Assembly (NCBI GenBank): GCA_027324255.1
Contig: DAHVTI010000234.1
Span: 1-46,950, forward strand
Reading direction: 5' to 3'
From: Bryobacterales bacterium
GTDB lineage: Bacteria > Acidobacteriota > Terriglobia > Bryobacterales > Bryobacteraceae
Length of the DNA: 46,950 nt
The notes beneath the pieces are model-generated. The model had not been told where the DNA came from and searched no databases. It worked only from the letters and a program-made list of their open reading frames with translations. The translations under genes and the position numbers were made by a program. Numbering within the stretch: the stretch's first letter is position 1; the number at the start of each line of letters is the position of its first letter. Below are positions 7,671 through 23,439 of this stretch, piece by piece.

Positions 7671-7674
7671 TTTC

Positions 7675-8274: not shown

Positions 8275-8832
8275 ATGCAAAAGGAAGAAATTGAAGCAGG
8301 CGTCCGATTGATACTGGAGGGGCTGGGGGTGGACCCCGACGATTCGAACTTCCGCCGCACGCCGCATCGGGTGGCCAGGGTATACGAGGAGATGTTCGTT
8401 GCGCCCAAGACGGAATGGCCGGTCTTCGACGAGGACTACACGGACATGGTGATCATGCGCGGCCACACCTTCTGGTCGCTCTGCCCGCATCACCTCCTGC
8501 CGGTGCGCCTGGTGGCATCGGTGGGCTATATTCCGCGGGGCAAGGTGATCGGGGCCAGCAAACTGATCCGCCTGATTCACGACTGCATCCGAAAGCCGAT
8601 GACGCAGGAGGCGCTGACGGCCAGCGTGATCGCGCACATCCGCCACCTGACCGTCGGAACGCCGGAAGGGGAGGCGGTATTCATGGAAGGACGCCACGGC
8701 TGTTTTGAGATCCGCGGAGTGCGGTCCGACGCTTCGCTGATCACGTGCAAGTTCAGCGGGCGCTTCGAGTCGGAGCCGGAATTGCAGCGCAGGTTCATGG
8801 ACCTGGCGCGCGCGCCCGGCAACGGCCGCTGA
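8275..8832 (+). CDS. folE: GTP cyclohydrolase I, divergent
   Basis: 185 residues. It converts GTP to 7,8-dihydroneopterin triphosphate, the first step to folate, queuosine-type or pterin products. The expected zinc ligands are visible as Cys70, His73 and Cys143 in SLCPHHLLPV and GCFEIRGV. The usual CEHH is CPHH here. KVIGASKLIRLI is the family's substrate-loop helix. A long in-frame extension upstream (from 7540) overlaps the TlpA gene antisense and is not coding. The start ATG at 8275 has little Shine-Dalgarno. It converges with the NifX-like gene 10 bases away. Confidence 0.85.
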   Translation: MQKEEIEAGVRLILEGLGVDPDDSNFRRTPHRVARVYEEMFVAPKTEWPVFDEDYTDMVIMRGHTFWSLCPHHLLPVRLVASVGYIPRGKVIGASKLIRLIHDCIRKPMTQEALTASVIAHIRHLTVGTPEGEAVFMEGRHGCFEIRGVRSDASLITCKFSGRFESEPELQRRFMDLARAPGNGR

Positions 8833-8842
8833 GCAGCCCTGC

Positions 8843-9181
8843 TCAGTGATCGCAGGCGTTCGAACCGGCGGCGAGGCTGCCGTTCAGGTACATGGCCGCG
8901 AGCGCCTCCGCGCATTCCGCCGGCGCACCGACGACGACGGCGATGGAGACGTCCTGGAAAAGCCCGATCGCGCGGGAACCCATGCCGCCGGCGATCACGA
9001 GGTCGACGCCCCGCTCCTTGAGCCAGGGGGGCAGGAGTCCGGGCTGGTGGTCCGGCGCGGGAACTTCCGCGAGAGCGGTGATCTGATTCAAGACTGGATC
9101 GACGTCAACGAGGGCGAACGTCCTGCAGTGCCCGAAGTGCTGAGCCAGATGCCCGTCCTCCATGGGGATCGCGATTCGCAT
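8843..9181 (-). CDS. NifB/NifX-like (ORP-type) metal-cluster-binding protein, short form
   Basis: 112 residues of the dinitrogenase iron-molybdenum cofactor biosynthesis domain. MRIAIPMEDGHLAQHFGHCRTF is the family's start (only its first and last residues matter: MRIAIP and HFGHC), followed by VDLVIAGGMGSRAIGLF, and the C-terminus ends NACDH. Members bind Fe-Mo or Mo-Cu type clusters or act as carriers; the 'orange protein' of Desulfovibrio is of this superfamily. A good AAGGAAA lies upstream. It is the last gene of the leftward operon, directly after two ferredoxin-ATPases, which are its likely partners. Confidence 0.87.
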   Translation of the reverse strand: MRIAIPMEDGHLAQHFGHCRTFALVDVDPVLNQITALAEVPAPDHQPGLLPPWLKERGVDLVIAGGMGSRAIGLFQDVSIAVVVGAPAECAEALAAMYLNGSLAAGSNACDH

Positions 9182-9208
9182 GATGTGCCGTTTCCTTTCT
9201 ACGGCCGC

Positions 9209-10105
9209 TCACCGGATGACGGTGAAGGGTGTTGTTTCCTTTTCGAAGGAGCGTTCGAGGGCCAGCCACGCATTTTCCAGCGTCCGCCGGAGCAGCGGAC
9301 CGGCCTTGGAGAGGACCGGCTCGCCGGCGAGCTGCGCCTGATTGAAGGCGGGATCGCAGTCCAGGCGGCCCAAGAGGGTGAACTGATTCCCGGCCGCATA
9401 CTTCTCGATGCGCGCGGCCATTGCGCGGTTGATGCCGGCCCGGTTGATGAGGATGCCGGCGGGCACGCCGAAATGGCGGACGACGGCGGCCACGCGTTGC
9501 AGATCGGCCAAGGCCGAAAGGGTGGGCTCGGTCACCAGCAACGCATAGCCGGCGCCGGTGAGTGAGGAGATGACGGGGCATCCGATGCCGGGGGACCCGT
9601 CGGCCAGAATCCAGGCGGCCCGATGCCGTTTCGCGAGGTCTTGCGCCGCCAGCCGCAGCGTGGACACCAGTTTGCCGGAGTTCTCGTCGCCGGGGTTCAA
9701 CCGGGCGTGGACCATGGGGCCGAGCCGGGTGCCGGAGATGAACCACTCTCCGCAGACATGAGGCTCCAGACGCACCGCCCGCTGCGGACAGATGTCCGCG
9801 CACACACCGCAACCTTCGCACAGGGTGAGGTCCACCACGGCCGCGCGGTCCAGGCGTAGCGCCTCGAAACGGCAGGCGTCCGTGCACAAGCCGCAGCCGG
9901 AACAGGCCGCCGGATCGATGCGGGCTTTGGCGCCACCGACAAACTGGTGCCGCTCCTGAACGGACGGCGCGAGCAACAGGTGGAGGTTGGCGGCGTCCAC
10001 GTCGCAGTCCACCAGCACCACCCGGCCCGCGAGCGAGGCGAATGCGGCCGTGAGGCTGGTCTTGCCGGTGCCGCCCTTTCCGCTGAGCACCGTGATCTGT
10101 TTCAA
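9209..10105 (-). CDS. MinD-superfamily P-loop ATPase with inserted 2x[4Fe-4S] ferredoxin domain (copy 2)
   Basis: 298 residues. The deviant Walker A SGKGGTGKT is at 8-16, and the switch VDCDVDAANL follows. A bacterial ferredoxin insert has Cys68/71/74/78 (CSGCGLCTDAC) and Cys96/99/102/106 (CEGCGVCADIC). LADGSPGIGCPV is the Walker B/switch II region. The start codon is TTG (10105-10103), overlapping the TGA of the upstream ATPase, so the pair is translationally coupled. Paired ATPases of this kind occur with NifX-like proteins in anaerobes and belong to the ORP complex in Desulfovibrio. A role in inserting or moving a metal cluster with ATP hydrolysis is inferred. Confidence 0.9.
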   Translation of the reverse strand: MKQITVLSGKGGTGKTSLTAAFASLAGRVVLVDCDVDAANLHLLLAPSVQERHQFVGGAKARIDPAACSGCGLCTDACRFEALRLDRAAVVDLTLCEGCGVCADICPQRAVRLEPHVCGEWFISGTRLGPMVHARLNPGDENSGKLVSTLRLAAQDLAKRHRAAWILADGSPGIGCPVISSLTGAGYALLVTEPTLSALADLQRVAAVVRHFGVPAGILINRAGINRAMAARIEKYAAGNQFTLLGRLDCDPAFNQAQLAGEPVLSKAGPLLRRTLENAWLALERSFEKETTPFTVIR

Positions 10106-10950
10106 GCCGGCACCTCCGCCGTCAGCCGGCTGGCGATGGCCTCGATCGCGCGTGCAAATTCGGGGACGCCGCGGCCCGGCAACTCTCCGCGGGAATACGC
10201 CTCGGCCACCTTGCGATTATCGGCGATGCGCCCGATGACCGGCAGGCGGACCTCGGCGCAATACCGCTCGACGCGGTTGTCGCCCGCCCCGTCCCGGTTG
10301 ATCACCACGCCGATCCGCGCGCCGGCCAACCGCGCAGTTTCGACAGCCAGCAGCAGGTCGTTCAGGCCGAAGGGAGTCGGCTCGGCGACGAGCACCACCT
10401 GGTCCGCGCCTCTCATGGCCGCCACGGCCGGGCAACTCGATCCGGGCGGAGCATCGAGCACGACCACTTCCGCATTCGTTTCCCGGCGTCTCACGGCGCG
10501 AATCATGTGCACCGTGGCCGTCTCTCCCGGATTCAGGCTGCCCTGCGTCAAGAGGACCGGACCCGCCCAGCCTTCCGCAATCTCGCCCACCGTGCGCTGC
10601 GATTCGCGCAGCGCGCCCGACGGGCAGGCGCGAACACAGCCGCCGCAGCCGTGGCAGAGTTCCGGGAACACCAAGACCCTGTGCGGAGTGACCGCGATGG
10701 CATGGAAACGGCACGCATCGCTGCACCGGCCGCAGCGGTCACATTCGGGATCGGCGACCACCGGCACCGGCCGCGCAACCGGTTCAGCCTGCTGCATACG
10801 CGGATGGAGCAGCAGCGCCGCATTGGGCGCCTCCACGTCGCAATCCAGGAGATGGACACGGAACCGCCGCGACAGAACGACGGCGAGGCTGGCCGCCACC
10901 GTCGTCTTGCCCGTACCGCCCTTGCCGCTGGCCACCGCGATGCGTGTCAT
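10102..10950 (-). CDS. MinD-superfamily P-loop ATPase with inserted 2x[4Fe-4S] ferredoxin domain (copy 1)
   Basis: 282 residues. Walker A GKGGTGKT is at 9-16, LLDCDVEAPN at 34-43, ferredoxin cysteines at 70/73/76/80 and 99/102/105/109, then DAPPGSSCPA. The same architecture as its downstream partner suggests a heterodimer. The start is placed at 10950 because the P-loop begins a few residues later; an open frame continues 109 codons upstream but overlaps the DUF5320 gene antisense in reading phase and is compositionally unlike protein. It is third in the leftward operon. Confidence 0.9.
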   Translation of the reverse strand: MTRIAVASGKGGTGKTTVAASLAVVLSRRFRVHLLDCDVEAPNAALLLHPRMQQAEPVARPVPVVADPECDRCGRCSDACRFHAIAVTPHRVLVFPELCHGCGGCVRACPSGALRESQRTVGEIAEGWAGPVLLTQGSLNPGETATVHMIRAVRRRETNAEVVVLDAPPGSSCPAVAAMRGADQVVLVAEPTPFGLNDLLLAVETARLAGARIGVVINRDGAGDNRVERYCAEVRLPVIGRIADNRKVAEAYSRGELPGRGVPEFARAIEAIASRLTAEVPA

Positions 10951-11095
10951 CTGATCATCCCGTCTGCTGGTCGAGTCATCGAGTGGAACCTCATCCGGCT
11001 TCCGGCAGGCGTCGTGACTCCGTCCCCGCGCTGTCCAAAAGCGCGCCCGCGCAGTGGTTCCCCGCCAGGCACCGGGCGCCAGGCTGGCCGGCCTC

Positions 11096-11335
11096 TTATG
11101 CGCTTTCCTTCCCGCGGTCCGCCAGGCCGGCTTCCGGGGAGCCGGCGGTTTTTTCACTCGCGACAGCGCCGGCCTGGCCGGCCGCGCGGCCCCGCTGCAT
11201 TCCGAACCGGTTGCGGCGGCCTCCGCGCAGACCCTGGCCGGCCCCGGCCCATCGGCCGGTGCAGTCGCCTCTCCCACGGCCCGTCATCGGACCCTCGCCC
11301 CGCGGTCCCGTACCATCCTTGAACGGCATCTTCAA
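11096..11335 (-). CDS. DUF5320-like small Gly/Arg-rich protein
   Basis: 79 residues. The N-terminal pattern DGTGPRGEGPMTGRGRGDC is the hallmark of DUF5320 peptides (D-G-T-G-P-x-G-x-G-P-x-T-G-R). These are found almost only beside NifX-like proteins and ferredoxin-ATPases in anaerobic bacteria. Their function is unknown; a scaffold or cluster-binding role is only a guess, since a single Cys is present. It lies between a NifX-like gene and the first ATPase in the same orientation. Confidence 0.85.
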   Translation of the reverse strand: MKMPFKDGTGPRGEGPMTGRGRGDCTGRWAGAGQGLRGGRRNRFGMQRGRAAGQAGAVASEKTAGSPEAGLADRGKESA

Positions 11336-11372
11336 CTCCTTTCGCCGCCTCGCGCCTCAGCGCCAGACGCTG

Positions 11373-11726
11373 TCAATACGCCGGATCAGACTCTTTGATC
11401 TCCGCCAGACGCCCGGCCCGAAATGCCTCCACGGCTTCCTTCGCAGTCCGGCCGTCTCCGCGGTACACCTTCACCCCGCCCGCGGACAACACCGCGAACG
11501 CCTTCGGCCCGACACGTCCCGTGATCAACGCTTCAGCGCCGTGGCGGCAGATCGTTTCGGCCGCCTGGATGCCGGCTCCGTGAGCCGCCTCCGGCGCCTG
11601 CGTGTTCTCCAGCAACGTCCAGGATTCCCGCGCCGAATCAAAGACGAGGAAATTCGCCGCCCGCCCGAATCGGGGGTCGACTTCGTTTTCACTACCGGCG
11701 CCCGCGGCGCTCACGACGATCTTCAT
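11373..11726 (-). CDS. NifB/NifX-like (ORP-type) metal-cluster-binding protein, long form
   Basis: 117 residues starting MKIVVSAAG and VDPRFGRAANFLVFD, the variant of the NifX/ORP family that usually opens these clusters. EALITGRVGPKAFAVL and GVKVYRG complete the fold. It is the first gene of the leftward operon. Its start is 130 bases from the start of the rightward operon, and the palindromic element at 11754-11770 lies 28 bases upstream, where a repressor would block transcription. Confidence 0.88.
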   Translation of the reverse strand: MKIVVSAAGAGSENEVDPRFGRAANFLVFDSARESWTLLENTQAPEAAHGAGIQAAETICRHGAEALITGRVGPKAFAVLSAGGVKVYRGDGRTAKEAVEAFRAGRLAEIKESDPAY

Positions 11727-11753
11727 TCGCTGCCTCGTGTTGTGTTAGTGTAT

Positions 11754-11770
11754 AGGTGCAACTCACACAT
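11754..11770. promoter_or_regulatory. Weak PadR-type operator in the divergent promoter region
   Basis: On the minus strand this 17-mer reads ATGTGTGAGTTGCACCT. It matches the padR-upstream element (AGGTGTGACGTACATCT) at 12 of 17 positions, and is itself an imperfect dyad (AGGTGC/ACACAT). It is flanked by candidate -10 boxes for both directions: TATACT at 11773 (+) and TATACA on the other strand at about 11749-11754. One repressor bound here could control both operons. Assignment rests on similarity to three other copies in this window. Confidence 0.4.
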
Positions 11771-11856
11771 AGTATACTTCGACTCTTACTGGCCGGTCAA
11801 GGATCTCCGAGGCAGAGTTGCCAGGCCGAATGGAAGAAAGGAGCGCCGATACGTCC

Positions 11857-12786
11857 ATGAGCGCAGTGCTGGAACCCGTAGAGACAGATGTCCAACTCCG
11901 AACTCTTCCGCGCTGGAAAGCCGCCGCGGCACTCGCCTGCGCCTTGCTGCTCAGCCTTCTGTTTCTCGCCTCGGGCGCGTGGAAGCTCTCCGATCTCGAC
12001 GCCACCTCCGAACGCATGGTGCAATCGCTGGTGCCGGCCGAGCTGAGCCTGCCCGCCTCGATCGCCGTAGCGGTGTGCGAGACATGCACCGGGATCCTGC
12101 TGCTGATCCCGAGGTGCCGGCGGTGGGGCGCGTGGCTGGCGGCGCTGATGCTGGCCGCCTTCATGATCTACATCGGTGTTTTGTACAACAGGCTGCTCGG
12201 CGAAGACTGCAACTGTTTTCCCTGGGTGAGGCGCGTGGTGGGGCCGGTGTTCTTCGCCGGAGACGGGGTCATGCTGCTGCTCGCGGCGATTGCCGGACGG
12301 TGGTCCGCGAGGTCTCATGGCTGGCGGCGGGCGGGGCTGATTCTAGCGGGAGTTTGCGCGCTGGCGGCGGGGGCGTATGCGGTCTCCTCCATCCGGCGGG
12401 CCGCGGCCGACGCTCCGGAAACGGCGCTGGTAGATGGCAAGCCTCTCCGCCTGCGCGCGGGCCGGATCCTCCTGTACTTCTTCGATCCCGAATGCTCGCA
12501 CTGCTACACGGTGGCGCACGAGATGGCCGCGCGCAACTGGGGCGGCACGAGGATCGTGGTCCTGGCGACTCGGGAACAGCAATACACGGCCGGCTTCCTG
12601 GCCGACACAGGGCTGCGCGCCGGAATTTCTCCGGACGCGGGCATGCTGCGAAAGACCTTTCCATTCACGGACCCGCCCTATGCGGTGGCGCTGCACCGCG
12701 GCCGGGCGGTGGCTCAGTTCAATTCCGGACAGATGGAGGGCGAAGGCTACTATGACGCGCTCAGGAGCCTCGGCTTCGTGAAGTGA
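11857..12786 (+). CDS. MauE/DoxX-like membrane protein fused to a thioredoxin-like domain
   Basis: 309 residues. Four hydrophobic segments make up a MauE/DoxX-type domain, with a CETCTG pair in the second helix region and EDCNCFPW, the loop cysteines typical of MauE-like redox proteins. A fifth membrane segment (AGLILAGVCALAAGAYAV) leads into a ~110-residue extracytoplasmic thioredoxin-like domain with CSHC in FFDPECSHCYTVAHE. It is probably a membrane thiol-relay that passes electrons to or from exported proteins. AAAGGAG lies 13 bases before the chosen ATG; an ATG at 11830 is possible. It is the first gene of the rightward operon. Confidence 0.75.
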   Translation: MSAVLEPVETDVQLRTLPRWKAAAALACALLLSLLFLASGAWKLSDLDATSERMVQSLVPAELSLPASIAVAVCETCTGILLLIPRCRRWGAWLAALMLAAFMIYIGVLYNRLLGEDCNCFPWVRRVVGPVFFAGDGVMLLLAAIAGRWSARSHGWRRAGLILAGVCALAAGAYAVSSIRRAAADAPETALVDGKPLRLRAGRILLYFFDPECSHCYTVAHEMAARNWGGTRIVVLATREQQYTAGFLADTGLRAGISPDAGMLRKTFPFTDPPYAVALHRGRAVAQFNSGQMEGEGYYDALRSLGFVK

Positions 12787-12819
12787 AAGCGCGCCTGAGA
12801 GGAAAGGGAGGGGTGCTTC

Positions 12820-13658
12820 ATGGTCCAACGACTCAGCATCACGGTACTGGCCGACAATTCGGCCGGCCCTGGCGGCCTGCTTGCGGAACACGGCTTGTCG
12901 TTTCTGATCGAGGCCGACGGCTCACGGGTCTTTTCGACACCGGCCAGGGATTGGTATTGCGCCACAACGTGGCCGCACTGGGCCTCTCCCTGGATCCACT
13001 CGACGCGGTTGTGCTGAGCCACGGGCATTACGACCATACGGGCGGCCTGGCCGGCGTTCTGGAGGATGCCCGCCCGGGGGCGATTTACGTCCATCCGGCG
13101 GCGCTGGAGAACAAGTTTGCCAGGCGCGGGCCGGATTCGTTCCGCTCCGTGGGCATTCCGGCGTCCTCGCGCGAAGCGCTGGAGGGATGGAAGGACCGCA
13201 TTGTCCGGACAAGCACGGCGGCGGAGGTAGCGCCGGGGGTCTGGTGCACCGGCGAGATTCCACGGGCCCGGACGGAGGGAGAAGCCGAGCAGTTCTTCTT
13301 CCTCGACGAGGAGGGACGGACGCCGGACCCCCTGGCCGACGATCAGGCGCTTTTCATCGATACGGCACGCGGGCTGGTGATCCTTTCAGGGTGCGCGCAC
13401 GCCGGAGTCGTGAACACCGTGGATCACGCGTGCCGCCTCGCCGGGCGCCAGGACATCCATGCGCTCATCGGCGGACTGCACCTGGGCAGCGCCACGCACA
13501 AACAACTCGAAGAGACGGGCAACGCGCTGGGGCGGCGCCGTTTTCAGTATCTGGCGCCATGCCACTGCACGGGCATGAACGCGCACGCTTACCTGCGTGC
13601 GCGATTTCACTCCGTGGTGCGCGACGTCAACGCCGGCAGCCGACTTGTACTTGAATGA
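12820..13658 (+). CDS. MBL-fold metallohydrolase (COG1237-like) with an apparent -1 frameshift
   Basis: The N-terminus (ITVLADNSAG, LLAEHGLSFLIE) reads in one frame from the ATG at 12820, which has a strong GGGAGGGG ribosome site. The rest (FDTGQG, VVLSHGHYDHTGGL, SGCAHAG, LIGGLHL, CHCTG) reads in another frame, ending at 13658. Adding one base at the TTTT run 12931-12934 restores a continuous protein of about 279 residues with the expected V-(L/F)-F-D-T-G-Q-G. The HxHxDH motif and later His residues are intact. Family members are cytoplasmic zinc/iron hydrolases of unclear substrate, common in ORP-type clusters. Sequencing error, recent mutation and recoding cannot be told apart here. Confidence 0.8.
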
Positions 13659-13762
13659 GGATAGAGAACGAAGACCGGCCCGAACGCGGGCGACTCAGCC
13701 CACAGCAGGATGTCGCCGCCTAGCTGCCGGATTCAGCCCAGGCACGAAAGGCGCCTCACACC

Positions 13763-14287
13763 ATGCCGGACAAAATCATCATCGAACCGATCGGCGTGAT
13801 TGAAACGCCGTTCCGCGACCCCTCGGGCACACCCATCCAACCTTCGCGGGCCAAGGGCGCGCGAGGCAGGGTCCGCATCGATCCGCGCTTCCGGGAAGGG
13901 CTGAAGGACCTGGATGGCTTCGAGCGCATCTGGCTGGTTTACTGGTTACACGGGGCGCCGGGGGTCAGCCTGACGGTCACGCCATTCCTCGACACCGGCA
14001 CGCGCGGGATCTTTGGGACGCGCTGGCCCGCGCGGCCTTCTCCGGTGGGCATTTCCGTTGTGCGCCTGCTGTCGGTGGGGGAGGAGTTCCTCGAAGTGGC
14101 GGACGTGGACATTATCGACGGCACGCCACTGCTGGACGTCAAGCCATACGTGCCGGAGTTCGACTGCTACCCGGAGAGCAGAGCGGGCTGGCTCGACCAG
14201 TCGAACTCGAGGCGCCGGGTCGCCGATGAGCGATTTGAAAGCAAGCCGGGCGGGAGGGATCCGGAACCGCCGCAGAGGGACCCATGA
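13763..14287 (+). CDS. trmO: TrmO/TsaA-family tRNA m6t6A37 methyltransferase
   Basis: 174 residues. The family methylates N6-threonylcarbamoyl-adenosine at tRNA position 37, using SAM. Signature segments are PIGVIETPF near the N-terminus, GRVRIDPRFREGL, then GIFGTRWPARPSPVGISVVRLL and DGTPLLDVKPYVPEFD. The last ~30 residues are poorly conserved and basic/acidic. Homologues in anaerobes often sit in metal-cofactor gene clusters rather than with tRNA genes, as here. The stop overlaps the next start (ATGA). Confidence 0.87.
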   Translation: MPDKIIIEPIGVIETPFRDPSGTPIQPSRAKGARGRVRIDPRFREGLKDLDGFERIWLVYWLHGAPGVSLTVTPFLDTGTRGIFGTRWPARPSPVGISVVRLLSVGEEFLEVADVDIIDGTPLLDVKPYVPEFDCYPESRAGWLDQSNSRRRVADERFESKPGGRDPEPPQRDP

Positions 14288-15300
14288 CACGAATGGTGCT
14301 CGACAGCCTGATGATCACCGGCTTCGTGGCCGGGATGATGCTGCTGATTGAATATTTGAACGTGCTCACCAGCGGGCAGTGGAGCCGCTGGCTGGCGGGC
14401 CGGGGGATGGTGCAGATCCTGGCCGCGGCGCTGCTCGGCGGGATTCCCGGATGCCTGGGGGCTTTCACCGTGGTGGCCTTGTATTCTCACGGCGTGCTGT
14501 CGTTCGGCGCGGTGGTAGCGGCCATGATTGCCACCAGCGGAGACGAGGCCTTCGTGTTGCTGGCACTCATCCCGCGGGCCGCGGCGGCGCTGGCCGTTAT
14601 TCTGATCGTCATCGCCGTGGTGGCGGGCTATGCGGTGGACCTGATCGCGGCGAAGCGTGTCGTGTCCTGGCCGCGGTGCGAAGCCCTGGTCATACACCCG
14701 TCGGAACAGCTCTCCTGGTTCTCGGCCGAGGGTGTCAAGGCACAGTGGAAGGAGTGTTCCGCAGCCCGCGGAGTGCTGTTCACAACGCTGGCCCTGTTTG
14801 CCGCGGCCATCGCGGCGGGGCAGATCGGGCCGCCTCGCTGGGACTGGGTGCGGATCAGCCTGATTGCGGTATCGAGCGCGGCGCTCTTCGTAGTGGCCAC
14901 CGTACCGGAGCATTTTCTGGAGGAGCACCTCTGGCGGCACGTGGCGCGCAAACACGTGCCCCGGGTCTTCCTGTGGACATTCGCGGCGCTGGCGCTGAGC
15001 GGGCCCGTGGAGCGCCTGATCCACGTCAGCGGGCCGGGCCAGCAGAGCAACTGGCTGCTGCTCCTGCTGGCCTGCGTCATCGGACTGATCCCGGAGTCCG
15101 GCCCGCACCTGATCTTCGTGACCCTGTATGCGCAACATGCCATTCCGTTCGCGGTCCTGCTGGCGAGCTGCCTCGTGCAGGACGGCCACGGCATGCTCCC
15201 GCTGCTGGCGCACTCGCGCAGGGCCTTCGTGGCGGTCAAGACGGTGAACTTCGCGTTGGGTCTGGCCGTGGGAGCTGTGGCGATGCAGTTCAAGTTCTGA
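14284..15300 (+). CDS. Putative 10-TM heavy-metal/manganese exporter (ArsP_2-like)
   Basis: 338 residues with about ten hydrophobic segments. Conserved loops are GGIPGCLGAFTVVALYSHG, then ATSGDEAFVLLALIP, and near the C-terminus GLIPESGPHLIFVTLYAQ. This symmetrical pattern of I-P-G-C / G-D-E / I-P-E-S-G-P is the signature of the 'putative manganese transporter' family (PF11449). The ion is not proven. Translationally coupled to trmO, it makes metal export the likely theme of the rightward operon. Confidence 0.75.
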   Translation: MTRMVLDSLMITGFVAGMMLLIEYLNVLTSGQWSRWLAGRGMVQILAAALLGGIPGCLGAFTVVALYSHGVLSFGAVVAAMIATSGDEAFVLLALIPRAAAALAVILIVIAVVAGYAVDLIAAKRVVSWPRCEALVIHPSEQLSWFSAEGVKAQWKECSAARGVLFTTLALFAAAIAAGQIGPPRWDWVRISLIAVSSAALFVVATVPEHFLEEHLWRHVARKHVPRVFLWTFAALALSGPVERLIHVSGPGQQSNWLLLLLACVIGLIPESGPHLIFVTLYAQHAIPFAVLLASCLVQDGHGMLPLLAHSRRAFVAVKTVNFALGLAVGAVAMQFKF

Positions 15301-15326
15301 GTTCGACCCGGGAAAGGACGTGACGA

Positions 15327-16301
15327 ATGGCACTGACACCTGAGATGATGCGCGAGAAGATCAAAGCGGCCGTGGCCGTTCAGGCGACGCCGTTGAACCG
15401 GAACGGCAGTCTCGACCTCGGCGGTCTCCGCGAGAACACCAGATTCCTGGTGGACCGGTGCGCCGGCAAGCGGCTGGTTCTCGTGCCCACGGGAAGCACG
15501 GGAGAAGCATACGCCCTGTCGGACGCCGAACGGCTGAAGGTGATTGAGACGGTGATCGACTGCGCGGCGGGCCGCCTGCCCGTTGTCGCCGGCACAGCCG
15601 CCGCGGGCACTGAACACACTCTGGAACTCTCCAGGTCAGCCCAGCAGGCCGGAGCGGACGGCGTGCAGGTGGTGCTGCCTTACTACCACGTGCCGAGCGA
15701 GGAGGGCCTGGTCCGCCACTTTCTGACACTGGCCGATGCGCTTCGCATCGGCGTGATGATCTACAACAACCCTGTAGTTTCGAAGCTGTGGATGGCGCCG
15801 CACCTGATGGTGCGGTGCTCGCAGCATCCGAATATCGTGGCCGACAAGGAGAACATCAGCGACGTCACCCTGTACAAGGCCATGCGCGATGCGGTGGATC
15901 CGGAGAAGATGGCGGTGCTGTGCGGGCTGGGAGACTTGCAGTTTGCCTATACGGCCGCACTCGGATGCCCGGGCTTCGTCTCCTGGACAGCGAACCTGGC
16001 GCCTCAGCTTTCGCTCGACCTGCTGGAGGCGGCCGATGCCTGCGACTTCCACCGCGTGCGCGAAATCGTCGCCAGGACCGGCCGGCTGTACGAGTTCGCC
16101 GGTGCGTGCGCGCGCAGGAGGGGCCGCGATCCCTGGATCCTGCCGGGGTTTGCGTCCGGCCACATCTACGTTGGCATTCTGAAGGCCGCGCTCGAATTGG
16201 TAGGGCTGGCCGGAGGGCCGGTCCGCGGCCCGGGCGACGATCTCGAGGCTGCGGAACGGGCGGAGTTGCAGGCATTGCTCCAGGACATCGGCCTGATTTA
16301 G
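15327..16301 (+). CDS. DapA/NAL-family Schiff-base aldolase-lyase
   Basis: 324 residues, a class I TIM-barrel of the dihydrodipicolinate synthase/N-acetylneuraminate lyase superfamily. Recognisable parts are TPLNRNGSLDL, VPTGSTGEAYALSDAER (the GxTGE-type carboxylate loop), IYNNPV with the catalytic Tyr, and VADKENIS with the Schiff-base Lys. It is unlikely to be the lysine-pathway DapA because it is longer, diverges in the C-terminal third and lies in a metal-related operon. Which 2-oxo acid it handles is unknown. It begins 26 bases after the exporter gene. Confidence 0.85.
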   Translation: MALTPEMMREKIKAAVAVQATPLNRNGSLDLGGLRENTRFLVDRCAGKRLVLVPTGSTGEAYALSDAERLKVIETVIDCAAGRLPVVAGTAAAGTEHTLELSRSAQQAGADGVQVVLPYYHVPSEEGLVRHFLTLADALRIGVMIYNNPVVSKLWMAPHLMVRCSQHPNIVADKENISDVTLYKAMRDAVDPEKMAVLCGLGDLQFAYTAALGCPGFVSWTANLAPQLSLDLLEAADACDFHRVREIVARTGRLYEFAGACARRRGRDPWILPGFASGHIYVGILKAALELVGLAGGPVRGPGDDLEAAERAELQALLQDIGLI

Positions 16302-16325
16302 CACCGGCGGGATCGTGAGGCCAAT

Positions 16326-17072
16326 ATGCTAATCGACGAGATTTGCGAGGCGCTGCTGCCTGCCGCGGCGGAACGCGCCGTGGCGGATGTGCGAATCGGC
16401 CTGGGGTACACGGCGGTTCAGGTCGACGATGGAGGCTGCGGGCTGGCCTACACCTTCCGGGACGAAATTCCCTCGGGCTGTTCTGTCATCCATTCGGCCG
16501 GCACGCTGGTAGGGCGCCAAGCCTCCGAACTGGCGCTATGGGCCAAGTCGCACGAGGCCCTGCCAGCCGCAATCGGACTCGCGACGCTGAATGCGCTGAT
16601 CGGCGTTCCTGCCGGGGCGGTGGAGACGGATCTGCTGGCGCTTCTGGCTTGTGAACCGGCCGACGAGGCCGGCATGGTGGGCCACTTCGCGCCTCTCGCC
16701 GATCCGCTGAAGGCGCGATGCCGTGCGCTGCACATCCTGGAACTCCGCGCGGACCCCGGATCGGGACTGCTGCCTGCATCGGCGGCGGCCGAAGTTCTAC
16801 CCAGATGCCGGATCGTGATCCTGTCGGCCACGACCCTGATCAACCGCACGCTCGATGAACTATTGCCACTGTGCCGCAGCGCCAGGGAGGTGGCGATTCT
16901 CGGCCCGTCCACCCCGATGCTGCCGGAGGTGTTCGCCGGACGGGGCGTGACATGCCTCTCCGGCGTCCGGGTGAGCAGCGCGGAACGGGCGCTGCGGGTC
17001 GTCAGCGAAGGCGGCGGCACGCGGCAATTCGGCGGAGCGGTGAGGAAGCTGACGCTCCGCCTGCCTGCTTGA
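16326..17072 (+). CDS. DUF364/DUF4213 putative heavy-metal-chelation domain protein
   Basis: 248 residues. The N-terminal part has the DUF4213 pattern (IGLGYTAVQ, then ASELALWA), and the C-terminal part the DUF364 pattern (VVILSATTLINRTLDELLPLCR, AILGPSTPMLPEVFAGRGV). The family is named for a predicted metal-binding role and often neighbours molybdate/tungstate or iron transport and nitrogenase-like genes. It is the last gene of the rightward operon, 24 bases after the DapA-like gene. No catalytic motif is evident. Confidence 0.75.
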   Translation: MLIDEICEALLPAAAERAVADVRIGLGYTAVQVDDGGCGLAYTFRDEIPSGCSVIHSAGTLVGRQASELALWAKSHEALPAAIGLATLNALIGVPAGAVETDLLALLACEPADEAGMVGHFAPLADPLKARCRALHILELRADPGSGLLPASAAAEVLPRCRIVILSATTLINRTLDELLPLCRSAREVAILGPSTPMLPEVFAGRGVTCLSGVRVSSAERALRVVSEGGGTRQFGGAVRKLTLRLPA

Positions 17073-17157
17073 GCGAGCCCGGCGGAGATCTTGCCCCAGT
17101 GTGGGTGGCCCCTGTTCGGCTGGCCCTTGAACCGGGCAGTAGACGGCAGTATCTTTT

Positions 17158-17174
17158 AGATGTGATGTACATCT
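17158..17174. promoter_or_regulatory. Perfect palindrome AGATGT-N5-ACATCT (PadR-type operator)
   Basis: The sequence AGATGTGATGTACATCT is a perfect 6-bp inverted repeat around GATGT. It lies 75 bases upstream of the 17250 gene. An almost identical element (15 of 17) precedes the padR gene. PadR proteins are known to bind ATGT/ACAT dyads, so this is the best-supported operator in the window. Its ATGT-N5-ACAT spacing is shorter than the ATGT-N8-ACAT described for Bacillus PadR. Confidence 0.6.
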
Positions 17175-17249
17175 ATTGACGCGTGAGGCGACCTGGGCTC
17201 CGGCGGCGGTGGGGGGAAGTCCGGCTGGAGCGGAACGGAGGTTTCGGGC

Positions 17250-17654
17250 ATGAACAAATTCGTGTACTTCGCCGCCATTGCCGGCAGCATTGTGCTGCTG
17301 TACGGAGTTGGGAGCAACTGGAAGCTGAAGCCGGAATCCACGTACCATCACAGCCCGTATATCGGGGAGACGGCCGTCCTGACGATTGCGGGAAGCGAGG
17401 CTGTCTGGCTGGCCTTGGACAAGAACGACTGCTACGCCATCAACGTGGCGATGGCCGGGAAGGACGCGGCGCAACTGCGGGGTTGCGCAGATGCAAATAC
17501 CGCTTTCGCCGTTCCGGCGGGCACGTTTGTGAAGGTCACGGGAGAATCCGCCAGCCACAACAAGGTGAAGATACTGGACGGTCCGCTGGCCGGAAAGACC
17601 GGATGGGTGGAATTCCAGTACCTGCGGCCAAGGCGGCCGGGGGAGTTCCGGTAG
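17250..17654 (+). CDS. Membrane-anchored small protein with possible SH3-like domain
   Basis: 134 residues. A single N-terminal membrane segment (FVYFAAIAGSIVLLYGV) is followed by a ~100-residue extracytoplasmic region. That region resembles a bacterial SH3-type barrel: FAVPAGTFVKVTGES, then KVKILDGPLAGKTGWVEFQYL. The last line, with G-x-x-G-W-V, is the common end of SH3_3-like domains. Two cysteines (in NDCYAI and RGCADA) may form a disulfide. GGAGG lies eight bases before the ATG. The perfect operator upstream ties it to the PadR regulon. No function is known. Confidence 0.7.
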   Translation: MNKFVYFAAIAGSIVLLYGVGSNWKLKPESTYHHSPYIGETAVLTIAGSEAVWLALDKNDCYAINVAMAGKDAAQLRGCADANTAFAVPAGTFVKVTGESASHNKVKILDGPLAGKTGWVEFQYLRPRRPGEFR

Positions 17655-17669
17655 CGGCCGGACGCGGCC

Positions 17670-17954
17670 CTACCAGGCGGGCCGCCCGCCGGCGCCCCGC
17701 GGGCGAAGGGTTCGGCCGTGGAGAGTGATGCGGGAGGCCAGCAGCATCTCCCCGTCGCAGCACGCCACCCGGTGGCCGGTCACGCGCGCGGCATCGCCCT
17801 GGCGGACGTTCAACTGACTGGCGAGGAGAAAGCCGGATCGGAATCGTCTCCAGGCCGGCCTCAACCCGTCCCGGCGGCTGGAGTCCCCGTGGCACGATGA
17901 TTGGCAGAAAGGAGCATCGGCGTGTGCCGCGGCCCCCTGGGTTGCCGCTGCCAT
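17670..17954 (-). CDS. Possible small exported protein
   Basis: 94 residues from the first ATG. An Ala-rich N-terminus could be part of a signal peptide. The C-terminal half (QLNVRQGDAARVTGHRV, then LLASRITLHGRTLRP, ending GGRPAW) reads like a small beta-rich domain: the alternation around G-D-x-x-R-V-T-G and the ending L-R-x-x-x-G-x-P-x-W are protein-like and seem familiar from short exported Acidobacteriota proteins. The N-terminus may be cut short, since an in-frame stop lies just upstream. It may instead be a remnant. Confidence 0.3.
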   Translation of the reverse strand: MAAATQGAAAHADAPFCQSSCHGDSSRRDGLRPAWRRFRSGFLLASQLNVRQGDAARVTGHRVACCDGEMLLASRITLHGRTLRPRGAGGRPAW

Positions 17955-18075
17955 GGCTACGGCGGCCCGGGTGGCGGTGACAACACGAGGGGCCGAATGC
18001 CGGGGGGCCAGTCACCCCCCACGACGGCGAAGATGACGAACGCGTTTGCGCGCCGCCTGCCTGGCTCACTCTTAT

Positions 18076-18092
18076 AGGTGTGACGTACATCT
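18076..18092. promoter_or_regulatory. PadR-type operator upstream of padR
   Basis: AGGTGTGACGTACATCT, an AGRTGT-N5-ACATCT dyad with one mismatch between arms. It differs at only two positions from the element at 17158 and is 126 bases before the padR start. Position suggests autoregulation. It could also serve the minus-strand ORF at 17954. Confidence 0.55.
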
Positions 18093-18218
18093 GTCGTAGA
18101 GGCTCGTGTTCAAGGTATTCCGACCGTTCTCAGTAGGTGAAAGAAGCATCTATGGCAGAATGGGGTGCGGGTCTGCTAGATTGGATATTGGTAGCCAGGC
18201 GGGATTCGGGAGGATCAA

Positions 18219-18662
18219 ATGCCACGACGGATGTGCCTCAGACATGGCGAAGATCAGCCCTGCACTTGCGCCATGGGAAACCTCTACCGGTTTGTGGAGC
18301 CGGTGGTGCTCCTGCTTCTGAAAAAGAAGGGGCAGTCCTACGGATACGACCTGGCCGGGGATCTCCACGAGCATGCGCTGACGGACGCGGAAATCGAGCG
18401 CGCCGCTCTTTACCGCACGCTGCGCCAACTGGAGATGAACGGCAACGTCAAATCCGACTGGGAGACCGACAGGGGCGGCCCGGCGCGCCGCGTCTACAAG
18501 CTGACGGCGATGGGCGAGAAGCACCTGGAAGAATGGGCCACGGTCCTCGATCACGTTTCGAAATCGATGACCCGATTCGTCAAAGAGGCGAGAGCGTCAA
18601 TCAAGGGGCAAACCGCGCCCAAGCGGAAGCCGGGCGCGCGGACCCGTAGCGCACGCCGGTAG
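18219..18662 (+). CDS. PadR-family transcriptional regulator with N-terminal cysteine cluster
   Basis: 147 residues. The winged helix is complete: NLYRFVEPVVLLLLKKKGQSYGYDL, given only as its ends (NLYRFVEP and YGYDL), then ERAALYRTLRQLEMNG (recognition helix) and GGPARRVYKLT for the wing. A shorter C-terminal helix for dimerisation and a basic tail follow. Unusual is the N-terminal Cys6-x8-Cys15-x-Cys17 before the HTH, a plausible metal or Fe-S site. A GGGAGGATCAA ribosome site directly before ATG 18219 shows that the cysteines are translated. Dyads matching PadR sites precede this and neighbouring genes. A sensor-repressor of metal or redox state is inferred. Confidence 0.88.
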   Translation: MPRRMCLRHGEDQPCTCAMGNLYRFVEPVVLLLLKKKGQSYGYDLAGDLHEHALTDAEIERAALYRTLRQLEMNGNVKSDWETDRGGPARRVYKLTAMGEKHLEEWATVLDHVSKSMTRFVKEARASIKGQTAPKRKPGARTRSARR

Positions 18663-18716
18663 CCCGGCCGTCGGGCACAGGAAGGCGGCCATGTTCACGG
18701 CGCGCGGCCCGGAAGA

Positions 18717-19421
18717 TCAGGGTTCCGGCTGAACGGCGAGGCGAAGCGCTTTTTCCGCGTGCAGCAGCGTTGTGTTGAACAAAGGCAAGGCGCAGTCCTG
18801 GGGCCGCACGAGCAGCGGAATCTCGGTGCATCCCAGCACGATGCCCTGCGCGCCGCGAAGCCGCAACCGGTCGATGATCCGCAGGAACATGCCGCGGGAC
18901 GCCTCCAGGATCCGCCCGCCGCAGAGTTCCTGGTAGATCACTTCATTCATGCGATCCTGATCGCCCGGCTCAGGGACCAGCACCTCAATCCCCGCCTGGG
19001 CGAGCCGATCGCGAAAGAAAGGCTCCCGCATGGTGAACACGGTGCCCAGCAGGCCCACGCGATGGAGGCCGGCAGAGAGGATGGCTTCGGCGGTGGCGTC
19101 GACAATGCTGACGAGAGGCATTCCAACCGCCTGCTGAACGGCATCAAAGACGATGTGCATCGTGTTGGTCGCGATCAGGCCGAAGCCGGCGCCGGCCAGG
19201 CGAAGGCCTTCCAGCGCCCTGGCCATTTCATCAGCGGCCGCCGTCCATTGCCCGGCGTGCTGCCAGTCGACGAATTGCTGGAAGTTCACGCTGTGGATGA
19301 GGATCTCCGGATACCCGTAGTCGCCGAAGCGCTCCGTATAGGTGCGGGTGATGTGCTCGTAGTAGACGATTGTGGACTCCGGGCTCATGCCTCCTAGAAT
19401 GCCGATCCTGCGGTGCTTCAT
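18717..19421 (-). CDS. Aspartate/glutamate racemase family protein
   Basis: 234 residues. It opens with GILGGMSPESTIVYYEHI, a family signature. The first catalytic position is Thr85 (ATNTMH) and the second is Cys198 (VLGCTEIPLL). Asp/Glu racemases normally use two cysteines; the Thr/Cys pair is known from the E. coli YgeA-type L-Asp/Glu-specific enzymes. A cofactor-independent amino acid racemase or related isomerase/decarboxylase is likely. It is transcribed towards padR, converging with it 54 bases away. Confidence 0.87.
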   Translation of the reverse strand: MKHRRIGILGGMSPESTIVYYEHITRTYTERFGDYGYPEILIHSVNFQQFVDWQHAGQWTAAADEMARALEGLRLAGAGFGLIATNTMHIVFDAVQQAVGMPLVSIVDATAEAILSAGLHRVGLLGTVFTMREPFFRDRLAQAGIEVLVPEPGDQDRMNEVIYQELCGGRILEASRGMFLRIIDRLRLRGAQGIVLGCTEIPLLVRPQDCALPLFNTTLLHAEKALRLAVQPEP

Positions 19422-19577
19422 CCTTCGATCTCCCGGACCTCAGCGATGGCGACAGACGCAAAGAGGCGCGCCGCCGCTCCTTTCGATCTCACCACGAATC
19501 CTGGAGGCCATTCCAGCCTGCCGCGGCCGCGGCGGAATTACAGGGCGGCCTGGCGCCCCGCCGGCGCGCGCGCCGCA

Positions 19578-19772
19578 TCAGAACCGCACATGGAGTCTTC
19601 GCAGGAATACGAGGTCTTCCTCCGAGAGCAGGACTCGGCTGGTCCAGCGACAGGTGTTCTCCCGCAAGGCGGCCGTCGCCAGCAGGAGCAGCCGGCTGGT
19701 CCACAGCAACCAGCAGCAGGCCAGTATGACGACCAGCACGACTTCAAACGTTTCCGGCACTGAAGCCAGCAT
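19578..19772 (-). CDS. Possible small membrane protein
   Basis: 64 residues, with one long hydrophobic helix (VVLVVILACCWLLWTSRLLLL) followed by a charged tail. It resembles a single-pass small protein in composition, but there is no family match that I recognise and no strong ribosome site. It may be chance. Confidence 0.2.
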   Translation of the reverse strand: MLASVPETFEVVLVVILACCWLLWTSRLLLLATAALRENTCRWTSRVLLSEEDLVFLRRLHVRF

Positions 19773-20215
19773 GGCGCCCCCCTTCCGGCCGGTCTCTCAT
19801 TTCCGCCTTCTCACCCGCCGGGGACAGTGGGAGACTTCGCCGCCGCCCCCTGGCCGACGCACCGCAACTTCGCCGCCAGCCCCAGGGCGGCATCCCCGAG
19901 GCAGGAGCTATCGCGGACTCGGATTCGCGCGGCGGCGTGGCGACATGCGGAATGCGAGGCAGCCTGCGCGCTCCTGCTCCTGATGCAGCGGCGCGGCGGT
20001 CTGCCGCCGCCGGCCCCTGGTAGAAGCGGGGTCCTGCCCCGCCGGGAGCGCTGGCGCGATCATCGGGAACGTGGTCATTGCCGTCTGCGGGGCCGGCCTG
20101 GCGCAGGACGCCGGCAGGAACAGTCCCTCTTGCGGCAACGATCCAGAGAGGCTCGCCGCAGCCGGTGACGCAGTTTTCGCGCACCGCCTTGCAACGCCTG
20201 ATCGTACAGTGCATA

Positions 20216-20234
20216 GTACATCTAGATGTTACTC
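20216..20234. promoter_or_regulatory. Palindrome ACATCTAGATGT upstream of the 20329/20812 genes
   Basis: ACATCTAGATGT (20218-20229) is a perfect 12-bp palindrome built from the same half sites as the PadR-type dyads, but back to back. With flanking AGT/ACT it extends to 19 bp with one mismatched pair. The preceding bases AGTGCATAGTACATCT also resemble the direct element. It lies about 100 bases before the start at 20329. Confidence 0.45.
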
Positions 20235-20328
20235 AATTCGAGCTGCTGTCACCAGCAGAGAATTACCGCATCGTAAGATCCGGAGCGATTGCGGCGGCTC
20301 ACCGGGCCGTGCCGGCAGGGAGGCAGTC

Positions 20329-20757
20329 ATGCGGAAGATGGCTGTGTTGGCGCTGAGTCCTTCGGAAGACGGCATACTCTCGGCTCAGATCGTGTTCTGG
20401 CAACGTGGCACGGAGCTACGCTGCGGCGGCACGATGGCTGAAGCGGCAGGATTCCTTGCGCGGCATCCCGGCGCGCTCGTTCTATGCCGATGGGCGGGGC
20501 AGGACCGCGGCCGGAACGCAGCGCTTTCCTGGCTCCTCGGCGCGGGCCGGCCCTCGGCGGTGGTATGGATGGGCGAATGTGGCCGGGACAAGATCAGCGT
20601 CGAGGTGAGGCCGGCAGGCGATCTCCGGGCCGCGCGCGAGATCCTTGGAAACCCGGAGTTGCTGCGGAAGATATACCTGGCCTGGAGCCACTGCGGGGGG
20701 AGTTTGCCAGCGCCGCACCAGGTTGCCGGAGAGGCCCTGAAGGAACTGGTGATGTGA
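20329..20757 (+). CDS. Hypothetical protein
   Basis: 142 residues from the ATG at 20329, which has GGGAGG seven bases upstream. I do not recognise a family. The alternation of short beta strands (MAVLALSPSEDG, ALVLCRWAG, AVVWMGECG) with helices suggests an alpha/beta fold, loosely like a receiver domain, but no phospho-acceptor pattern is present. Two Cys and a Trp near the C-terminus are not diagnostic. An open frame extends upstream to 20071 but crosses the operator and is rejected. It is followed by a TPR gene and may share its transcript. Confidence 0.6.
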   Translation: MRKMAVLALSPSEDGILSAQIVFWQRGTELRCGGTMAEAAGFLARHPGALVLCRWAGQDRGRNAALSWLLGAGRPSAVVWMGECGRDKISVEVRPAGDLRAAREILGNPELLRKIYLAWSHCGGSLPAPHQVAGEALKELVM

Positions 20758-20811
20758 TCGCGGGCAGTGGGTTTGCCGGCCGAAGGGATGCTCGCAGTGA
20801 GAGGATGCGTC

Positions 20812-21792
20812 ATGGGAGAGGCACAGCAGGACAGGAGGTCGCTGGCGGCTTGGAGGTGCGCGGCTCAGCGGTGTGAGGAGGCGATCCCTCTTCTCGAGAA
20901 GGTGCTGGCCGATCAGCCCGCCGACGCCGAGGTGAGTTACCAGCTCGGACTCTGCTACAGCGGCGCCTGCCGGATGCACTCGCTGGTAAGCCCGCCGTTC
21001 GCAATCGCATACTTGGAACGGGCGCTGCGGGTGATTGGCCCGGACGGCCATCCGGAGTTCCGGGTGAAAGCGCTGGATGCGCTCGGCAACGTCCAGCGGC
21101 TCAATCTGCGGCCGGAGGAGGCCCTGCCGCTGCTGGAGGAGGCGGCCGCGCTCTTTCAGCGCCTCGGAGCGTCAGAAGACTGGGCGCGGACGGAGTTCAA
21201 CCTGGGCAACCTGTGCTGCGATCTTGCCGGACGCGGGGCGCCGCAGCAGTGGGATGCGGCAATCCGGCACTATCGAAATGCGTTGACCGTCAGGCGGGAG
21301 GATACCGACCCGGTCCGGTTCGCGGCGACTGTACTGAACCTGGGCACGGCTTATCGCGAATCGCCCGGCGAAGATCACGAAGCGAACCTCAGGAGGGCCA
21401 TCGGCTGCTACAGCGCCGCATTTCGGGCGTACCTCGGTGCGCACCTGCGCCAGAAGTGCGCCGACGTGCACAACAACCTCGGCAATGCCTTCCTGGAACT
21501 GTCATCGACTCCCCGCGCTGCCTGCAGGAACACCCGCCGCGCGCTCCGGCACTATGCGCTGGCGCTCCGCGCCCGCACCAAGGCCGATCGCCCCCGCGAC
21601 TACGCGGTGACACAACTCAACCGGGGACAAGGCTACCTCCGGCTCGCCGGCTGCGAGCCGGAGGGGAGCAGGCAATCCGCCTCACGCTGCTTCCAGGAAG
21701 CCATGGAAGGCTTCCTGCTGTGTGGAGATCCAACGCGCGCCAGCCTGGCGAGAGAGTGTTTGAGCGCCCTGGCAGGCTCACGTTCCGGGTGA
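20812..21792 (+). CDS. Tetratricopeptide-repeat protein
   Basis: 326 residues from 20812 (GAGAGG upstream; in-frame ATGs at 20767 and 20788 are alternatives). Helical repeats of TPR type run through most of it: AIPLLEKVLADQPADAEVSYQLG, summarised here by its ends; ALDALGNVQRLNLRPEEALPLL; TEFNLGNL; ATVLNLGTAYRE; VHNNLGNAFLEL; AVTQLNRGQGYLRL. No signal peptide is seen, so it is probably cytoplasmic and a protein-binding scaffold. It lies 54 bases after the 20329 gene and shares its upstream palindrome. A link to the PadR regulon is inferred. Confidence 0.75.
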   Translation: MGEAQQDRRSLAAWRCAAQRCEEAIPLLEKVLADQPADAEVSYQLGLCYSGACRMHSLVSPPFAIAYLERALRVIGPDGHPEFRVKALDALGNVQRLNLRPEEALPLLEEAAALFQRLGASEDWARTEFNLGNLCCDLAGRGAPQQWDAAIRHYRNALTVRREDTDPVRFAATVLNLGTAYRESPGEDHEANLRRAIGCYSAAFRAYLGAHLRQKCADVHNNLGNAFLELSSTPRAACRNTRRALRHYALALRARTKADRPRDYAVTQLNRGQGYLRLAGCEPEGSRQSASRCFQEAMEGFLLCGDPTRASLARECLSALAGSRSG

Positions 21793-21960
21793 TGCGCGGC
21801 GCGGTCCCGTCCTGAACGGGTGGAGGGCGCTTGGCGGGAAGGGACAGCACCCACGTCCCGACCAGACTATTGCCGGAGGCCGGTTTCACCGCCGCCGGCA
21901 CAGGGACGGGGAGAAGATTGCGATGCGGCGCATTCCCGGAGAGGCCCACCCGCGAAGCCG

Positions 21961-23439
21961 TCAGGGAGCGGAGATCCCCTGGACGGCTGAGCAGTTCTCT
22001 TCCAACCGGAAGGAAGGAGCCGGGGTGACGGTGTTGACCCGGACGGAGTGGAACGAGGAATCGTGGACGTCGTCGAGGACGAATACCGGCCGGGCGTCGG
22101 GCTGGCGGAGCGAGACCCGCATGTTGCTGAGATGAATGTCCCTGGCGTGGCGGACATAGAAGGCACTGGCGGGGAGCACGCCGAACATGCGGTTTTCGGG
22201 GTAAGCCCTGGAGTTTTCCGGGACGACGCGGCGGGCATCTTCCTGGGTGCCGGGCGGGAAGCCGCCGAGGATCTCGATGTCGACGTCGTCGATGAAGACG
22301 CGCTGAACCGGGCGGCCGGGGATGCCGGTGATGCTGGAGGCGTAGGGCAGGTAGTTGTGCATGGCGCGCTCCGCGGAGGAATGCTTCTCGGCGTCATTCA
22401 CCTGGGCGCGGATGCCGCTGATGTGGATGTCTTCGAGGACGCCGGTGGCGGGGACGGCGTCGCCCGAGTCCGTGACGATGGGCCGGTTGCGGTCGCCGAG
22501 CCGGATGAAGATGGGCGTCTCGACGACGTCCATGGTGAGGTTGCGGACGATGACGTTGCGCATGACGCCGCCATCGACGAGTTCGAGCGCCAGCCCGGCG
22601 ATGCCGGTTTGCCAGACGACGTTGTTCTCGATGAGGATGTTCTGGAAGCCGCCGGAGGAGTCCGTGCCGGCCTTGATGCCGTTGCAGAGGCTGCGGACGC
22701 GGTTGTTGCGGATGACGACGTTGCGGCAGCCGGCGGAGGTGTAGCCCTTGAGGCAGATGCCGTCGTCGAGGGCGTCGATATTGCAGTTCTCGACGATGGC
22801 GTTGTCACAGTCGATGATGTTGCAGCCGTCGTTGTTGCGGAAGGTGCTGTCGCGGACGGTGATGCCGCCGACATGGAGGTTGCGGCAGCGGGTGTAGGTC
22901 TCGGTCCAGAAGCCCGATGAGGTGAAGGTGACGTCGCGGACCGAGACGTTGGCGCACTCGTCGAACCAGATGAGGCAGGGGCGGTGCTTCTCCACGCGGT
23001 CCTTGGAGATGAAATCGTTTTCGCCCTGGCTGTTGCCGTTGAGCGTGCCTTTGCCGGTGACGGAGATGCCACCGGCGCCCTGGGCGAAGAGCAGGCTGGT
23101 GAGGAGGAAGCGGTCGTAGCGGGCCTTGGATCTGGGTGCGTGCGGGGCATAGTCGCGCACCCACGGGCTGCCGAGGAGGACGGCACCGTCGCTGAGATGG
23201 AGGTTGACGCGGTCCTTCAGGACGACGCCTCCGGTGAGGAACGTGCCCGGGGGGACGAGGACCTGGCCGCCGCCGGAAGCGGCGCAGGCGTCGATGGCGC
23301 GCTGGATGGCGGCGGTCGAGAGAGTGCGCTGCCCCGCGGCAGCACCGTAGTGCTGGATGTTGAAGACGCGGGAGGCGGAGTGCGCCGAGGCGGCGGCGCC
23401 CGTGGCGAGCAGAAATGCCCTGCGAGGAAGGATGGACAT
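21961..23439 (-). CDS. GH28-like glycoside hydrolase (polygalacturonase family), exported
   Basis: 492 residues with a signal containing a single Arg-Arg (PRRAFLLATGAAASA). The body is a right-handed parallel beta-helix: VFNIQHYGAAAG with TAAIQRAIDACAASGGGQV, the pectate-lyase/GH28 N-terminal box, then GTLNGN, NNDGCNIIDC, ALDDGICLKGY (acidic catalytic pair) and GIKAGTDSSGGFQNI. It probably hydrolyses galacturonans or related uronic polysaccharides outside the cytoplasm. The canonical GHG triad is not obvious, so substrate and even hydrolase activity are uncertain. Confidence 0.8.
   Translation of the reverse strand: MSILPRRAFLLATGAAASAHSASRVFNIQHYGAAAGQRTLSTAAIQRAIDACAASGGGQVLVPPGTFLTGGVVLKDRVNLHLSDGAVLLGSPWVRDYAPHAPRSKARYDRFLLTSLLFAQGAGGISVTGKGTLNGNSQGENDFISKDRVEKHRPCLIWFDECANVSVRDVTFTSSGFWTETYTRCRNLHVGGITVRDSTFRNNDGCNIIDCDNAIVENCNIDALDDGICLKGYTSAGCRNVVIRNNRVRSLCNGIKAGTDSSGGFQNILIENNVVWQTGIAGLALELVDGGVMRNVIVRNLTMDVVETPIFIRLGDRNRPIVTDSGDAVPATGVLEDIHISGIRAQVNDAEKHSSAERAMHNYLPYASSITGIPGRPVQRVFIDDVDIEILGGFPPGTQEDARRVVPENSRAYPENRMFGVLPASAFYVRHARDIHLSNMRVSLRQPDARPVFVLDDVHDSSFHSVRVNTVTPAPSFRLEENCSAVQGISAP

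Follow-up and report, generated by a model that had tools for sequence, protein, structure and literature searches.

A PadR-family protein with a conserved Cys3His tail as the probable dedicated regulator of a NifX and MinD-ferredoxin gene cluster

Why a PadR protein should carry three cysteines ahead of its winged helix is the question raised by the reading frame at 18219-18662 (+) of the window, a stretch of 46,950 nucleotides from a Bryobacterales bacterium. The first-pass annotation had noted an N-terminal Cys-x8-Cys-x-Cys in its product and proposed a metal, Fe-S or redox sensor. The frame is a genuine padR gene of 147 aa. Its product has the N-terminus MPRRMCLRHGEDQPCTCAMGNLYRF, in which Cys6, Cys15 and Cys17 all precede a winged helix at residues 30-105, with a dimer-type C-terminal helix at 97-130. 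The earlier observation was correct and understated; an invariant histidine, His9, had been overlooked, and with it the tail motif is a Cys3His set of the form C-x2-H-x5-C-x-C.

The cysteine region would be untranslated if the protein began at Met19, a residue kept in 76 of 78 aligned proteins. Both Met5 and Met19 are further in-frame ATGs and possible starts in principle. An in-frame stop lies upstream of padR at 18192, no ATG, GTG or TTG occurs between 18192 and 18219, and GGGAGG stands a few bases 5' of ATG 18219 in the Shine-Dalgarno position. Among the homologues, a Shine-Dalgarno sequence is usual before the start 19 codons upstream and almost never found before Met19. Upstream of Met19 conservation acts at the amino-acid level, with the codons of the tail Cys and His residues switching synonymously (TGC/TGT, CAT/CAC) while the residues themselves are unchanged. 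These findings exclude a Met19 start in practice, leaving it a vanishingly small probability, and bear out the earlier claim of translated cysteines behind a near-perfect ribosome site.

By profile and predicted fold the protein is a PadR member. PF03551 matched residues 30-105 at 57 bits against a gathering cut-off of 27 and was the only family matched; the Rrf2 domain that defines IscR and its relatives was not found in the product. The AlphaFold model displays a PadR fold with a mean pLDDT of 83.8 and the long C-terminal helix, its N-terminal tail being of moderate confidence (pLDDT about 67-72), and its best PDB matches are PadR proteins. Shared with the family (PF03551; LmrR and the Listeria and Brachyspira PadR structures) are the winged helix, the C-terminal dimer helix and a predicted autoregulation through a palindrome near the promoter. 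It differs in the Cys3His tail ahead of helix 1, in its predicted NifX and Fe-S targets and in its operator, the commonly cited PadR consensus being ATGT-N8-ACAT.

Named PadR families describe the protein less well. The best NCBIfam match is PhaQ (TIGR02719), the poly-beta-hydroxybutyrate-responsive repressor, with which it shares a GPARR-Y wing and a long N-terminus. This identity was rejected at 64.5 bits against a cut-off of 139.35. The N-terminus of Priestia PhaQ is free of cysteine and its gene is grouped with phaP/phaR, while no pha genes were found among the scanned padR neighbours. Likewise rejected was the acidobacterial PadR paralog family TIGR03433 (48.4 bits against 101.8). The solved structures 5zi8 and 7wh4 show the PadR protein Rv3488 of M. 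tuberculosis in complex with a ligand, which we take to be cadmium; on NF053635 the window protein reaches 27 bits, with the cut-off at 140.

The tail was examined in a search of 84,980 species genomes, using an alignment trimmed to begin at Gly20 and therefore patterns with no Cys column. This yielded 79 padR loci, mainly from Acidobacteriota, with others from Armatimonadota, Geobacteraceae and some further groups. Two of the loci, labelled as Hydrogenedentota (L036) and Arcobacter (L060), are of acidobacterial type and were likely mis-binned or transferred. In the alignment of 78 sequences, the window protein among them, His9 and Cys17 are each present in 78/78 sequences, Cys15 in 76/78 and Cys6 in 75/78, counts that, like the operator and co-occurrence counts below, come from related genomes and are not phylogenetically independent. 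With cysteine columns kept out of the search, this conservation is far beyond chance. The three proteins without Cys6 carry a cysteine one residue later, giving C-x-H, and the two that lack Cys15 have serine there, its sole substitute, and retain Cys6, His9 and Cys17. Tail positions 5, 7 and 11 vary freely beside the conserved residues. The first-pass annotation had suggested aligning PadR proteins found beside NifX/DUF5320 genes; this alignment supplies the comparison, with each cysteine kept in 75-78 of 78 sequences.

Ten carrier genomes were checked, each with one copy above 200 bits and then a gap down to below 90 bits, and the group is therefore a distinct subfamily. N-terminal cysteines are nonetheless wider spread than the annotation of an atypical feature had allowed, since other PadR lineages (L156-L158, L013, L022, L162, L163) bear different N-terminal Cys patterns. 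Judged from these sequences, the Cys-tailed PadR type is wider than one cluster, and it is the exact Cys3His spacing that marks this subfamily. In the tree of distant PadR relatives the branches are long and many forks stay open, and a single origin of the N-terminal cysteines is not claimed. A wide alignment of seven sequences yielded no searchable stretch, and a search of viral contigs returned no relatives. L159-L161, three relatives in the same phylum as the Geobacteraceae carriers, have no N-terminal cysteines. As the cysteines are present in their closest relatives, L156 and L157, these proteins form natural Cys-less controls. In L163 (G471:C16), a 461-aa frame couples a Cys-tailed PadR domain (CACAGG...) at its N-terminus with a stretch that by eye resembles a radical SAM domain (CRPCPMNCGFC).

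The genes under control of this subfamily were approached through its operator. Upstream regions of padR in other genomes have in common a 19-bp palindrome, TAGRTGYAA-N-TTRCAYCTA. The exact 6+6 dyad TAGATG-N7-CATCTA occurs in 17 of 78 such regions (300 bp), compared with no more than two in shuffles. A palindromic weight matrix was trained only on padR upstream regions of other genomes, the window being excluded, and has the consensus TATAGATGTAAATTACATCTATA. With this matrix, 61 of 78 padR genes have an upstream site, whereas shuffled sequences yield 0-1. Over 1.23 Mb of loci at 16 bits it gave 119 matches where the reversed matrix gave 0, and 50 of these lie away from padR, many of them before NifX2, NifXa, TrmO, MBL, DUF5320 and TusA genes. 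Non-padR sites are an independent test of the operator as they were absent from the matrix training. With padR-promoter sites excluded, matrix sites are enriched at NifX genes (16/55 vs. 35/1016 for other genes, p about 5e-10, among related loci). In L058, a TusA-like gene is preceded by three operator copies in tandem at 7338-7491, a hint that the regulon has a branch for sulfur transfer.

The window contains five matrix sites of at least 18 bits, where shuffling predicts 0.01; the runner-up scores 11.4 bits. All five lie between genes at promoters and are backed by both the matrix and the pattern. Two predicted operators precede padR itself, at 18073-18095 (TATAGGTGTGACGTACATCTGTC, 18.5 bits) and 18132-18154 (AGTAGGTGAAAGAAGCATCTATG, 20.0 bits), placed much as the two upstream of its ortholog in L024 (-156 and -86). 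No sigma-70 promoter was recognised in the region upstream of padR. The best site in the window, at 17155-17177 (TTTAGATGTGATGTACATCTATT, 27.0 bits), precedes a gene for an SH3-like small protein (17250-17654, +; no Pfam match, named by eye), and the orthologous gene in L024 is preceded by a matching site. A fourth, at 8253-8275 (ACTAGATGCAAGAAACACTTATA, 24.4 bits), lies between tlpA (-) and folE2 (8275-8832, +; PF01227), a second GTP cyclohydrolase I copy. This copy is the weaker, more divergent paralog of a stronger, canonical one on contig C118, and its start codon directly abuts the operator.

The remaining site, at 11751-11773 (TATAGGTGCAACTCACACATAGT, 24.9 bits), is predicted between nifX2 (-) and mauE (+). 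The minus-strand nifX2 has a sigma-70-like promoter, TTGACC-18-TATACT, which ends at 11771 at the operator edge. The -10 box TATACT runs into the operator at its end, and the expected start point lies within the operator too, an arrangement that fits repression by occlusion.

The genome as a whole was scanned by pattern with up to two mismatches rather than by matrix. The pattern found eight places in 6.17 Mb, five of them inside the window. Because a two-mismatch pattern is at background level in whole genomes without this PadR, trust was limited to sites with few mismatches or with matrix support. The places on C58 and C329 have no support from the matrix and were taken as chance, while one on C151 scores 19.8 bits and was kept as a possible PadR operator on a contig that also holds the third of the genome's three NifX genes (PF02579). 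No Rfam elements were found at 5000-22000 of the window.

The operators frame a cluster of two opposed transcription units. On the minus strand, nifX2 (11373-11726; PF02579, 80 bits) is the first gene, followed by a DUF5320 protein (11096-11335; PF17253), two MinD-like ATPases with ferredoxin inserts (10102-10956, Orp3/Orp4-like with an uncertain start, and 9209-10105; each PF01656 + Fer4) and nifX1 (8843-9181; PF02579). The plus-strand operon begins with a MauE/DoxX protein (11818-12786; PF07291), followed by a metallo-beta-lactamase fold protein (12783-13658; PF00753), a TrmO-like tRNA methyltransferase (13763-14287; PF01980), an ArsP_2 heavy-metal/arsenic efflux protein (14284-15300; PF11449, NF037962 above cut-off), a DHDPS-family aldolase (15327-16301; PF00701) and a DUF4213/DUF364 'putative heavy-metal chelation' protein (16326-17072; PF13938, PF04016).

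This gene content recalls the Orange protein (ORP) complex of Desulfovibrio vulgaris, in which ORP-domain proteins, which are NifX-like, are joined by Orp3 and Orp4, two MinD-like ATPases of the ferredoxin type (PMC6345978). The window likewise encodes two PF02579 proteins and two CbiA+Fer4 (ferredoxin-MinD) ATPases. Its NifX proteins are not fused to Mrp, with scores of 114.5 and 26.8 bits against 450 for the fused MrpORP (NF041136); the higher score is that of nifX1, whose product matched the C-terminal MrpORP part against a cut-off for the whole protein. Regulation also differs, with a PadR palindrome here whereas the D. vulgaris orp operons are activated by sigma-54 and DVU2106 (PMC3897727).

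The first-pass annotation had placed padR in the cluster. In this genome the Fe-S and NifX genes are 6.5-9.4 kb away on the opposite strand rather than directly beside it, while in many relatives they are adjacent. Since padR is a separate transcription unit 6.5 kb from the nearest NifX gene, it could be asked if PadR regulates only itself, the NifX link being accidental. This is very improbable, since the nifX2/mauE promoter of this genome and many NifX promoters of other genomes carry the operator, and since PadR and NifX genes co-occur across genomes. A PF02579 gene lies within 3.5 kb of 40 of the 79 padR genes, often adjacent and divergent, where roughly 0.3 of 79 loci would be expected by chance at the NifX density of this genome. 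About half of the loci have no NifX gene within that distance, contig ends accounting for only some. PF02579 genes are present in 13/13 genomes with this PadR and absent from 19/19 acidobacterial genomes without it, all related, and the two differ together between G073 and G121 of the same genus. Other recurrent neighbours are MinD-ferredoxin ATPases, Mrp, DUF5320, TrmO, MBL, thioesterase and CoA-disulfide reductase genes.

The predicted regulon is well supported, its operator, target list and co-occurrence with NifX genes having been computed along with the gene and the motif conservation. We consider it fairly likely that this is an autoregulated PadR repressor dedicated to the NifX/MinD-ferredoxin cluster, with the Cys3His tail as its metal, Fe-S or redox input. 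The PadR dimer would bind the 19-bp palindrome, and at the nifX2 site, whose position coincides with the -10 box end and the expected start, it would block transcription. Control by further sites would extend to the divergent mauE-MBL-trmO-arsP-DHDPS-DUF364 genes, to the SH3 gene and second folE/tlpA, and to padR. That PadR acts as a repressor is suggested by family habit and the promoter overlap.

In this proposal the tail, just before helix 1, would be the sensory input, its residues most likely serving as four ligands of one metal centre. Binding of a metal or Fe-S centre is indicated by a histidine that never varies alongside three cysteines, by the retention of a Cys in the shifted C-x-H form, and by serine as the only substitute for Cys15. 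Either a thiolate metal site or, after the manner of IscR, a labile Cys3His Fe-S cluster could fill this role, and loss or change of the centre would alter DNA binding and so open the gene cluster. We infer that this centre is the signal, and ligand identity and the direction of the response likewise. The earlier interpretation is thus plausible from sequence: its cluster link is now supported by an operator common to padR and NifX/DUF5320 promoters, while sensing is read from the Cys3His set and the target genes. PadR is probably a dedicated metal, Fe-S or redox sensor for the nearby cluster.

The cysteines might instead form a metal-free thiol switch of the CstR/BigR type, through a disulfide or persulfide. 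The recurrence nearby of genes for CoA-disulfide reductase with a rhodanese domain, thioredoxin-like and MBL proteins is consistent with this, as are TusA and Hdr-like genes near padR in relatives and the operators at TusA promoters in L058. A dithiol switch would however have no need of an invariant His9, and two proteins have Ser15 while retaining Cys6, His9 and Cys17, which makes this reading unlikely. Cys3His is a common zinc ligand set, and the tail could bind zinc for structure alone and so keep the N-terminus ordered, with the signal elsewhere, such as a ligand in the dimer cavity. Other PadR proteins do take small molecules there, with drug, heme and riboflavin complexes of LmrR among the structural matches. 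The predicted targets are Fe-S, NifX and metal genes, and L159-L161 still match the PadR profile with no cysteines, so that a structural role appears rather less probable still.

Returning to a sensory centre, Cys3His is also the ligand set of the IscR cluster, and the activator DVU2106 reportedly carries an Fe-S cluster as well. If its centre is Fe-S, the window PadR would work similarly to IscR (Rrf2 family), from which it differs in protein family, ligand spacing and ligand position, its own cluster being only proposed. IscR, itself of winged-helix type, carries a [2Fe-2S] cluster and acts as repressor of the Fe-S biogenesis operon to which it belongs (PMC12594620). It is tentatively suggested, at somewhat under even chances, that a metal centre or Fe-S cluster on the tail makes this PadR an IscR-like sensor that arose on a PadR scaffold and governs NifX/Orange-protein-type genes across several phyla.

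A literature search on PadR with Fe-S, NifX, thiol or zinc found nothing relevant, and neither a PadR repressor bearing an Fe-S cluster or conserved N-terminal metal-type motif nor a PadR regulator of NifX/ORP-type genes was described in the literature searched. The physiological role of these genes is obscure, and knowing which signal PadR senses would reveal the purpose of the cluster. The operator, the target list and a candidate set of four ligand residues are defined, which makes this signal directly testable. The C151 locus (L114, G000:C151) adds an arrangement reminiscent of the Desulfovibrio orp genes, with the third NifX gene, a DUF5320-like ORF and, by eye, a sigma-54 activator among features at 7044-8444 (-), 9574-9900 (+) and 10116 onward (+), and the possible PadR operator at 4987.
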